Assembly (NCBI GenBank): GCA_021734255.1
Contig: JAIPJM010000013.1
Location: 1 to 64,000, forward strand
Origin: Fidelibacterota bacterium
Lineage (GTDB): Bacteria; Fidelibacterota; UBA8477; JABMPR01
DNA: 64,000 nucleotides
Reading direction: 5' to 3'
Under the pieces are notes generated by a model. That model was not told the origin of the DNA, ran no database searches, and saw only the letters and a list, made by a program, of their open reading frames with translations. Shown here piece after piece: positions 12,406 through 56,887 of the stretch (positions are counted from its first letter, which is position 1; each line of letters begins with the position of its first letter). Made by a program: the position numbers and the translations under genes.

Positions 12406-12451
12406 TACACCGCCCAGGACTCAAACCTGGAACCAATTGACTAAGAGTCAA
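12406..12451 (-). pseudogene. tRNA-Lys 3' fragment (anticodon arm to acceptor end)
   Basis: On the minus strand these 46 nt match the intact tRNA-Lys at 14870-14915 at 40 of 46 positions. They include the CTCTTA anticodon loop, the TTTGAGTCC T-arm and the GGCGGTGTA acceptor end. The T-stem is still fully paired (CCAGG/CCTGG). The 5' part is not recognisable: no GCACCGC-like acceptor strand and no proper D-stem lie upstream (12452-12478). It is therefore a tRNA pseudogene or a duplicated 3' end such as an integration scar, in the same orientation as the intact gene. Confidence 0.75.
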
Positions 12452-12498: not shown

Positions 12499-13233
12499 TT
12501 ACCTATTCAAAAGTGAGTTGAAATAAACTGGGAGCTTGGCCTCGAAGGTCATCCATTCATTGGATTTGGGGTGTAAAATAGTCATGATACCGGCATGGAG
12601 GGTCAGTCGCTTGATGCTTTTCACTGATTCACCATACACTTTATCGCCGACAACCGGACAGCCTGCATCAGCAAAATGGACCCTGATCTGATTCTTCCGG
12701 CCGGTTAACAGGTCAATTTCTACCAGGCTATAATATTTTGATTCTCTAATCACCTTATATCCGGTTTTAGCCAGCTTCCCCTTTTTGGGATCATCTACCG
12801 TATACATTCGATGAACACTATTCTCAGCGAGGTAAGATGAAAGAATGCCTTCCTTCTGCTCCAGCGTTCCATGAATTACAGCATAGTATTTTTTTGTAAA
12901 TCCCGACCAGTTATCCTGTAAAAACCGCTTACTGGACTCGCTTTTCGCAAAAACTAACACACCAGATGTATCTCGATCCAGGCGGTGTACGATGTAGATT
13001 CTTTTGCGTGACTTGGCATTTCCCTTACGAACATAGTTGTTTAAAGCAAAATAGGCAGTGCGGTCTCGCTCTTTCGCATTACTCATCGTTAAAAGACCGC
13101 TGGCTTTATCAACGACCAAGATATAATCATCTTCATAGAGAAAAGTAAGACCTCTGGGTTGATGTCTCTTAGAGCGTGGCCTGTTCTGTTTTTTGTTTTC
13201 AGAAAAGGGTTGTTCCTGTGTCTGCTTTTTCAC
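12499..13233 (-). CDS. RluA-family RNA pseudouridine synthase
   Basis: 244 residues. The catalytic motif HRLDRDTSG is present (the Asp is the catalytic residue of the family), preceded by FLYEDDYILVVDKASGLL and followed by KKYYAVIHG, TGRKNQIRVHFA and LHAG, the usual RluA landmarks. Such enzymes isomerise uridine to pseudouridine in rRNA or tRNA. There is no S4 domain; the N terminus is a short basic, Gln-rich tail. The specific RNA target cannot be told. It lies between the tRNA-Lys remnant and an AT-rich orphan, within the tRNA-flanked segment. Confidence 0.9.
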   Translation of the reverse strand: MKKQTQEQPFSENKKQNRPRSKRHQPRGLTFLYEDDYILVVDKASGLLTMSNAKERDRTAYFALNNYVRKGNAKSRKRIYIVHRLDRDTSGVLVFAKSESSKRFLQDNWSGFTKKYYAVIHGTLEQKEGILSSYLAENSVHRMYTVDDPKKGKLAKTGYKVIRESKYYSLVEIDLLTGRKNQIRVHFADAGCPVVGDKVYGESVKSIKRLTLHAGIMTILHPKSNEWMTFEAKLPVYFNSLLNR

Positions 13234-14059: not shown

Positions 14060-14326
14060 GTATATAGTTTATTTTAAAAATACATCGGAATGCCAATAAT
14101 TTAATAAGTCGTAAATGGCCAACCCTCGGTGGCCAAATCTTGGCTTTTAATGACTTTTGTTGGCCATTTATGGCTAAAAGGCTTGGCCTTAGAACAAAAT
14201 TATATGGGTTATAATTAATTTAAGGAGCCCTTGAGCGTATGCTACTTAAGGGCTTCGGTGGCGCCTGCTACGACGAAGCTGTGCTTGTCACAGCGTAGGC
14301 GAGTACACCGCCTAGCATAGCTGTCC
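14060..14326. repeat. Non-coding region with a 12-bp inverted repeat and palindromic segments
   Basis: TAAATGGCCAAC (14112-14123) and GTTGGCCATTTA (14159-14170) form a perfect inverted repeat with a 35-bp spacer that contains a further GGCCAA. Further on, AGCCCTT (14226-14232) and AAGGGCT (14248-14254) form a hairpin. A GC-rich palindromic stretch follows (14262-14300), ending in TACACCGCC (14304-14312), the 3'-end nonamer of the nearby tRNA-Lys. No gene was seen. Confidence 0.6.
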
Positions 14327-14514
14327 TCCGTGGTCAAACCCCTGTTTTCATTGGCTCCCGTTTTAAATAAAAAAAGTACAATTATATTGAGGAGGGCACC
14401 GAGCCCCCCTTTGACAGAGAAATTCTAAAGCAAAACCCCCCCGTTACCGGAGGGTTTTTACTTTAGTACACCGCCACACCTACGCCCTCCGGGCTACGGT
14501 GCGCAGGCAGGGAC
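14327..14514. repeat. Direct repeat copy A (about 188 bp) with tRNA-end and terminator elements
   Basis: This unit recurs at 14570-14758 with only about ten differences. On the minus strand it reads, in order, a TCCCTGCC end, a hairpin-forming GC-rich insert, GGCGGTGTA (the acceptor end of tRNA-Lys), a terminator-like stem (14431-14460) and a T-rich tail. It is not coding. It looks like a degenerate tRNA 3' end plus terminator with a palindromic insertion, amplified in tandem. Confidence 0.85.
14431..14460 (-). terminator. Terminator-like hairpin in repeat copy A
   Basis: On the minus strand AAAAACCCTCCG pairs with CGGGGGGGTTTT around a GTAA loop, and the stem is flanked by T/A runs. It follows the GGCGGTGTA tRNA-end element, as the terminators do at the intact tRNA and at the 12.4-kb remnant. 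Confidence 0.55.
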
Positions 14515-14569
14515 TGACCGTTCGCAATCTGCCACAGGCAGATTCTGCTCCGGCTCTGCTCCGCTGCGC

Positions 14570-14758
14570 TCCGCGGTCAAACCCCTGTTTTCATTGGCTC
14601 CCGTGTTAAATAAAAAAAAGTGCAATTATATTGAGGAGGGCACCGAGACCCCCTTTGACCGAGAAATTCTAAAGCAAAAACCCCCCGTTACCGGAGGGTT
14701 ATTGCTTTAGTACACCGCCACACCTACGCCCTCTGGGCTACGGTGCGCAGGCAGGGAC
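14570..14758. repeat. Direct repeat copy B (about 189 bp)
   Basis: The second copy of the unit at 14327-14514, with the same order of elements. The tRNA-end nonamer TACACCGCC is at 14711-14719. The two copies are separated by 55 bp of unrelated GC-rich, partly palindromic sequence. Copy B ends in CAGGGAC, as does the T-arm of the intact tRNA (plus-strand reading), 110 bp before that gene. Confidence 0.85.
14675..14702 (-). terminator. Terminator-like hairpin in repeat copy B
   Basis: The same hairpin as in copy A with small changes: an AACCCTCCGG arm, a GTAA loop and a CGGGGGG arm followed by TTTTTG on the minus strand. Confidence 0.5.
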
Positions 14759-14830
14759 CAGTCTTCGCTTCACTTCGTTCAGCTACGCCTCGGCAGGCTC
14801 GAACAAGGTGACTCACCCCATGACACATAC

Positions 14831-14868
14831 AAAAAAAGAGGGCTCTCTTTCGAGAACCCTCTTTTTTC
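14831..14868 (-). terminator. Rho-independent terminator of tRNA-Lys
   Basis: Immediately beyond the tRNA 3' end, the minus strand has AAAAAAGAGGG, a second stem TTCTC/GAGAG with a GAAA tetraloop, and CCCTCTTTTTTT. This is a strong stem with a long U-tract. Confidence 0.85.
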
Positions 14869-14869
14869 G

Positions 14870-14942
<73 letters not shown>

Positions 14943-56380: not shown

Positions 56381-56887
56381 TTAGCTATCAATTTCGATCT
56401 GCCATTTCCTTGGATTATCACGGATATATTCACGGATTCGTTCTAGGTCAGACTTATTTCTGACGATGTGATCCCAGAAATCCTCTTGCCATAATTTTTT
56501 TCCTGGTGTTCCCCTCTCCTGATTGACTCGTTTTGTTGAAACGGTCTTAAACGCGCCTATTACTCTTCCTAATGGTTTGGGTGATGGGGTGTTTCGCGAA
56601 ACACCCCCTTCATCTCTGCCGAAAAATACAATTGCGTGCATATGGTTGGGCATCACAACAAACTCATCCAGAGTTAAATGATCATAATGATTTCCCATCC
56701 ATCTCCATGCTTTTTCAACGGTCTTGCCAATATCATTCAAGATTACTTTACCATTCGTGACTTTGCCAAAAAGATGCTCCCGTTTTAACGCTGTCATGGT
56801 GATGTAATATTTTGCTTCTTTGGTATAATCATGACCCTTTAATCGGATTGACTTACCGTGACGGATGCTGGGATGGAAGAAAGTCAT
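56381..56887 (-). mobile_element. REP-associated tyrosine transposase (RAYT), IS200/IS605-like Y1
   Basis: 168 residues, a single-domain Y1 transposase. The HUH-type pair is in VVMPNHMHAIVFFG, the Tyr nucleophile likely in RIREYIRDNPRKW, and LKREHLFG and WQEDFWDHIVRN are typical RAYT stretches. RAYTs move or maintain REP palindromes. A REP-like palindrome is at 52796-52817. The gene is wedged 3 bp from priA and overlaps the extended frame of the peptidase gene. Apparently intact. Confidence 0.92.

Follow-up and report, generated by a model that had tools for sequence, protein, structure and literature searches.

The array of broken tRNA-Lys 3' ends located behind tRNA-Lys(CTT), the only intact tRNA gene of the window (the whole 64,000-nt stretch of Fidelibacterota DNA analysed here), probably represents the scars of a selfish element built of a GIY-YIG nuclease gene and palindromes, which targets tRNA genes and leaves behind an intact tRNA and broken pieces of it. 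The array was not a peculiarity of tRNA-Lys, as many tRNA genes were affected, in their 5' parts as well as in their 3' parts.

The acceptor-end nonamer TACACCGCC was found in the window search at 12406, 14304, 14467, 14711 and 14870, always on the plus strand, which confirmed the five positions reported by the first-pass annotation. A sixth copy was present at 12981 on the minus strand, within an RluA-type gene. The chance expectation for this sequence was 0.19 per window and none of 100 shuffles reached six copies. The features of the region, listed from the intact gene towards the remnant at 12406, were as follows.

14869–14942, minus strand: intact tRNA-Lys(CTT) without encoded CCA (ARAGORN; Rfam RF00005, 63.4 bits; orthologs)
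14828–14871, minus strand: terminator hairpin of the intact tRNA-Lys (inverted repeat I3, then a T run)
14711–14806, minus strand: broken copy 1, with the T-arm 5' part TTGTTCGAG (14806–14798), T-loop insert (14797–14758), TCCCTG (14757–14752), junction insert (14751–14720) and acceptor 3' strand GGCGGTGTA (14719–14711) (sequence compared with tRNA-Lys; breakpoint script for the T-stem/acceptor junction)
14669–14710, minus strand: terminator hairpin after broken copy 1 (inverted repeats I1/I4)
14467–14585, minus strand: broken copy 2, with GGGGTTTGACC (14585–14575), T-loop insert (14574–14516), AGTCCCTG (14515–14508), junction insert (14507–14476) and GGCGGTGTA (14475–14467) (sequence; RNA fold)
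14425–14466, minus strand: terminator hairpin after broken copy 2 (inverted repeats)
14320–14758, minus strand: two tandem 243/244-bp units (repeat analysis)
14304–14342, minus strand: broken copy 3, with GGGGTTTGACC (14342–14332), insert (14331–14313) and GGCGGTGTA (14312–14304) (sequence; junction comparison with genome G010, locus L170)
14257–14303, minus strand: palindromic insert separating the island from the old tRNA 3' end (absent in G010)
14115–14256, minus strand: island sequence, directly behind tRNA-Lys in G010 (blastn, 88.8% over 143 nt)
12406–12451, minus strand: tRNA-Lys remnant, positions 28–73, uninterrupted, with the genus-type T-arm (sequence identity)

Read in the sense of the tRNA (minus strand), both main copies (1 and 2) had the order GTCCCTG, GC-rich insert, GGCGGTGTA and terminator hairpin, just as had been described for the nonamer and the hairpin following it, and the proposed link to tRNA 3' ends and palindrome insertions was likewise correct. 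Besides the insert at the T-stem/acceptor junction, each of them carried a second insert in the T-loop. The tandem repeat noticed earlier was real, but its full unit was 243/244 bp long (14320–14563 and 14563–14758, 94% identical overall, with pieces of 153 nt and 56 nt that were 93% identical) and the 188 bp initially reported corresponded to the better-matching part. No copy of this unit was detected elsewhere in the same genome or in 19 other genomes of the family. The proposed small non-autonomous element targeting this site came near to the best explanation; however, the 188-bp repeat itself was not the mobile unit, because only two tandem copies of it existed in the genome. The genome-wide check suggested for copies beside tRNA genes located the unit only here, whereas the same pattern appeared at many other tRNA genes. 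In the RNA fold of broken copy 2 the T-stem GGGG/CCCC was kept and the insert formed an extra arm (z −1.95), while broken copies 1 and 3 folded no better than shuffles (z −0.57 and −1.5, respectively). At low stringency, tRNA was the sole credible Rfam match between 12000 and 15200.

The comparison with G010 revealed the order of events at this locus. In G010, the island sequence (starting at window position 14256) begins 5 nt after tRNA-Lys and the array of about 610 bp is absent. The T-arm of the intact tRNA-Lys in the window is CGGGG/CCCTG, while that of the genus type is CCAGG/CCTGG; because the two tRNAs differ in this arm, the 12406 remnant was closer to the genus tRNA-Lys (95.7% identity) than to the intact gene of its own window (87%). 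It follows from the G010 junction and the T-arm type that the island is old, that its far attachment remnant is the copy at 12406 and that the copy at 14304 represents the tRNA 3' end originally bordering the island. The sequence comparison indicates that the approximately 610 bp, including the broken copies, entered between the tRNA and the island after the arrival of the latter. The capture of a tRNA 3' end with its terminator, as first suggested, would thus reverse the history of the 14304 copy, which was left behind as the original 3' end.

The 12406 copy, previously grouped with the others, belongs to a different, classical event as the remnant of an old island attachment. This assignment is based on its sequence and on what is established about islands that integrate at tRNA genes. 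Fragments of the 3' part of a tRNA are left by integrative elements whose attachment sites lie in tRNA 3' ends, and the 12406 copy is an uninterrupted 3' fragment of the pre-insertion sequence type. No integrase gene was recognised near this copy or among the open reading frames (ORFs) listed around the array. At the tRNA-Lys(CTT) loci L162–L171, the downstream sequence and genes varied among relatives, as for an island insertion hot spot.

To place the array in a wider context, partial tRNA copies were surveyed in the genome of the window, in its genus and in the phylum. In the same genome, 13 of 39 tRNA genes had exact partial self-copies of at least 11 nt within 1.5 kb. All 31 matches were on the same strand and none on the opposite one, with 5' parts placed upstream and 3' parts downstream of the intact tRNA. 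The ratio of same- to opposite-strand copies in a genus sample of 81 tRNA genes from six genomes was 51 to 1. Among 47 upstream fragments, a set partly chosen by pattern and hence not independent, 33 began at nt 1 and 26 corresponded exactly to nt 1–12. A search for the nt 1–12 junction in 245 phylum genomes gave 22 matches in 13 genomes, 12 of them within the genus of the window, and the reversed control of this search in the same 245 genomes gave no match. Junction matches with enough flank were located 77–372 nt upstream of a tRNA, mostly the parent, with 12/12 nt identical. A separate collection scan detected the same palindrome family after nt 12 in a broken tRNA-Val copy upstream of tRNA-Val in Ca. 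Moraniibacteriota of the Patescibacteria (L116). In genome G013, a copy of tRNA-Lys(CTT) carried inserts at the two sites also interrupted in the window.

Two further observations were made at such copies. At L049:2000–2560, in the genome of the window, a CRISPR-like repeat array (GGTTCATCCCCGCGTCTGCGGGGAACAC) begins directly after broken tRNA-Pro(GGG) copies. In 5' leader copies of tRNA-Arg (for example L114, L123, L024 and L076), an inverted complement of nt 4–11 of the tRNA itself was found behind the palindrome, and where the tRNA sequence differed from species to species, this complement differed accordingly (CCGGTAGC/GCTACCGG, CCAGTAGC/GCTACTGG and CCCGTAGC/GCTACGGG).

The inserts were confined to defined parts of the tRNA. 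A total of 46 insertion or replacement events were read across 147 tRNA genes, located in the D-stem after nt 12, in the T-loop or at the T-stem/acceptor junction, or consisting of the replacement of a whole anticodon arm or T arm within two bases. A few events fell outside these sites and several were exact arm swaps. The palindrome family inserted after nt 12 (24 distinct copies) covaried as a two-part hairpin (0.292 versus 0.148 in shuffled sequences, 0/500), and nine of its 12 copies in the genome of the window adjoined tRNA genes. A pseudo-tRNA-Ala folded far better than shuffles (z −4.7).

In relatives, such copies were accompanied by small stand-alone ORFs of 80–140 aa with a GIY-YIG domain (Pfam PF01541, E-values of 4e-20 to 3e-14). 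Across all sampled loci, 31 of 69 small GIY-YIG genes were situated just downstream of a tRNA or tmRNA gene, with 0.35 expected; all expectations are for roughly 45 tRNA genes distributed randomly in each genome. In the genus (six genomes), 16 of 43 GIY-YIG loci were at most 500 nt downstream of a tRNA or tmRNA on the same strand (0.21 expected, P = 2e-26) and none of the 43 was within 500 nt of one in any other orientation or on the other side. In other families of the phylum, the same position was occupied by 15 of 26 loci, comprising the best-scoring loci only (0.14 expected, P = 1e-27). Genes directly behind tmRNA (ssrA) were found at L042, L099, L151 and L212.

At most tRNA-linked loci, the stop codon of the nuclease was followed by an arm-changed 3' part of the same tRNA and then by a duplicate of the tail of that tRNA, with direct repeats of up to 151 nt. 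At L083, L206 and L218 (tRNA-Asp), the T arm was exactly replaced by TCCCGAC...GTCGGGA. At L192 (tRNA-Ala), the anticodon arm was replaced and a second hairpin was present in the T-loop, and at L214 (tRNA-Asn) the nuclease gene, arm-swapped copy and tail were repeated in tandem. At L197 and L248, the upstream 5' copies had an anticodon arm carrying a hairpin of this kind, and the intact tRNA was followed by a nuclease gene; because of this pairing the upstream 5' copies were assigned to the same elements. Hairpins of the TCCCGA type occurred at nine of 31 tRNA-linked GIY-YIG loci versus none of 36 loci not at tRNAs; therefore, these palindromes are a feature of the tRNA sites rather than of the nuclease in general. 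GIY-YIG genes away from tRNAs (L096, L087, L100 and L109) had other flanking palindromic repeats, and at L096 GTCATCCCGAGCGGAGTCGAGGGAC and its reverse complement flank the gene.

The most elaborate arrays were observed in the single-contig genome G022. Downstream of its tRNA-Asp (L249, G022:C1:2677500–2684000), 18 T-arm-swapped copies with a 104-bp period and four nuclease genes at 692-bp spacing formed a higher-order tandem array. The tRNA-Val gene was followed by four anticodon-arm-swapped copies and one nuclease gene, while upstream of tRNA-Pro there were 5' copies with swapped arms, and a nuclease ORF began almost at the end of this tRNA. The copies of G022 were unmutated outside the swapped arm. 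As such arrays, with 18 copies and four nuclease genes behind one tRNA, are present in a single-contig genome, the objection of an assembly artefact raised by the first-pass annotation does not hold.

The window itself contained no GIY-YIG gene, live or dead, as tblastn with 22 GIY-YIG proteins returned nothing significant, and no nuclease gene adjoined tRNA-Lys(CTT) in those relatives for which the flanking sequence was inspected; for this reason the link between the window and the nuclease is one of analogy. The array is likely a nuclease-free remnant of an element that once had a nuclease gene, because at tRNA-Ala(GGC) of the same genome a dead GIY-YIG gene (tblastn, 1.7e-18) lies behind an arm-swapped copy, while at tRNA-Ala(GGC) of G013 such a gene is open, and because of the tRNA-Lys(CTT) inserts of G013 and the array-free site of G010. 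The presence or absence of the nuclease at the same tRNA between relatives is consistent with copying into alleles without the element, which is predicted to be mobile. Counting against this explanation, several tRNAs of the genus had 5' arrays without a nearby nuclease, G015 had scars and only a long, UvrC-sized GIY-YIG match, and more than half of the GIY-YIG genes were not at tRNAs.

The full element, as seen in relatives, comprises a small GIY-YIG gene right behind the tRNA, then a 3' part of this tRNA with at least one arm filled or replaced by a palindromic hairpin and then a copy of the tRNA's downstream tail. The nuclease is predicted to cut tRNA genes at their arms, and repair from a neighbouring or incoming copy would duplicate part of the tRNA gene. 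Only products keeping one intact tRNA would survive. The broken pieces would remain by the intact gene, 5' pieces upstream and 3' pieces downstream, and multiply as tandem repeats, while their hairpins may block re-cutting by the nuclease. In the window, the nuclease gene would have been lost, and what is left between the intact tRNA and the older island are three broken 3' ends of tRNA-Lys with their terminators.

Three other explanations were weighed. Tandem tRNA duplicates could decay neutrally, with REP palindromes mobilised by RAYT landing in the spare copies. Y1 transposases of RAYT size are indeed present in these genomes and some palindromes lie away from tRNAs (three of 12 P elements), but none of 20 Y1 transposase loci was near a tRNA or associated with these palindrome families, the breakpoints were far from random, and the G022 copies showed no decay outside the swapped arm. 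As this explanation also leaves the link between nuclease and tRNA unaccounted for, it was considered unlikely. Slightly less credit was given to the possibility that tyrosine-integrase islands entered the tRNA-Lys 3' end one after another and that every copy is an attachment-site remnant of one of them. This would agree with the 12406 copy and with the island boundary, given positions 28–73, the other T-arm type and the island shared with G010, and also with the genes behind tRNA-Lys(CTT), which vary among relatives. However, successive islands give no account of upstream 5' fragments, exact arm swaps or the tRNA-Asp and tRNA-Val tandem arrays. Only one of five integrase loci of the genome was near a tRNA, and none was recognised among the ORFs around the array. 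Each of the three copies at 14304–14711 is interrupted by inserts, placed in the T-arm or at the junction, in contrast to an uninterrupted attachment remnant. Integrase attachment is therefore disfavoured for these copies and explains the 12406 copy only.

A selected function, in which the broken copies serve as RNAs or as spare DNA (decoys for defence nucleases that cut tRNA, tRNA-control leaders or repair templates), was regarded as the least probable and very doubtful. It would agree with the covarying hairpins, with the tRNA-Arg leader complement tracking the tRNA's own 5' end across species and with the fold of the pseudo-tRNA-Ala. Against this, the presence of arrays varies from one relative to another, the 3' copies, which have no 5' acceptor strand, cannot make a tRNA, and covariation could also stem from palindrome formation at the DNA level.

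The tRNA-targeted GIY-YIG/palindrome element may represent a new class of mobile element, although we put this forward tentatively, with slightly less than even confidence. Such a class would be defined by a GIY-YIG nuclease that recognises tRNA arms, swaps single arms for palindromes and spares one intact tRNA, its arm-swapped copies filling the surroundings of tRNA and tmRNA genes across the phylum, with one palindrome family also in Patescibacteria. Separate status as a class would be merited if the nuclease were shown to recognise arms and insertion to spare the tRNA. Essential single-copy RNA genes offer selfish DNA an unfavourable site, and a tRNA-sparing element, if true, would show a route of colonisation. 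It would also offer a chromosomal counterpart to the mechanism of phage SegB and a candidate enzyme for palindromic repeats without a known transposase, such as the CGTC-type REPs, which have no dedicated one (PMC3733652). The odd tRNA fragments skipped by automatic annotation would be explained as well.

Among known systems, integrative elements of tRNA 3' ends differ in that they leave 3' fragments and not 5' fragments, arm swaps or tandem nuclease units. The palindromic elements of Rickettsia are inserted in genes at places tolerated by the product and have been reported also in RNA genes; here, in contrast, the tRNA copy with the insertion no longer works and has an intact neighbour. In a search with incomplete literature coverage, no report joining GIY-YIG with REP palindromes or Marinimicrobia and none on arm-swapped tRNA copies was found. 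REP/REPIN sequences with their RAYT (Y1) transposases are similar in that short GC-rich palindromes are tied to a small nuclease gene (PMC2817692, PMC3116915, PMC3733652). The enzyme here is GIY-YIG and not Y1, the palindromes lie in defined tRNA arms, and the 20 Y1 loci lack them, unlike a Y1 (HUH) transposase flanked by its REPs. As a separate observation, the window has a Y1-type (RAYT-like) transposase ORF at 56381–56887 on the minus strand, between its flanking ORFs.

Of the systems described before, free-standing GIY-YIG homing endonucleases come closest, and in relatives the catalytic domain indeed occupies a small stand-alone ORF beside its presumed target. SegB of phage T6 is such a nuclease. 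It cuts in tRNA genes with a preference for RAWTSGAAC, which is complementary to the T-loop motif GTTC-S-A-W-T-Y, and a tRNA-bearing segment depends on it for its tandem amplification (PMC13096335). In T4, segB is located between tRNA genes (PMC2988022). The T-even phage enzymes thus share with the present loci a small GIY-YIG gene by tRNA genes and tandem repeats (PMC13096335, PMC2988022). In contrast to SegB, the genes described here, whose products are predicted to cut tRNA genes, reside in bacterial chromosomes across a phylum. Those linked to tRNAs always lie downstream on the same strand, also at tmRNA, and behind most of them comes a copy of the host's tRNA with a swapped arm; palindromes occur in the tRNA arms.
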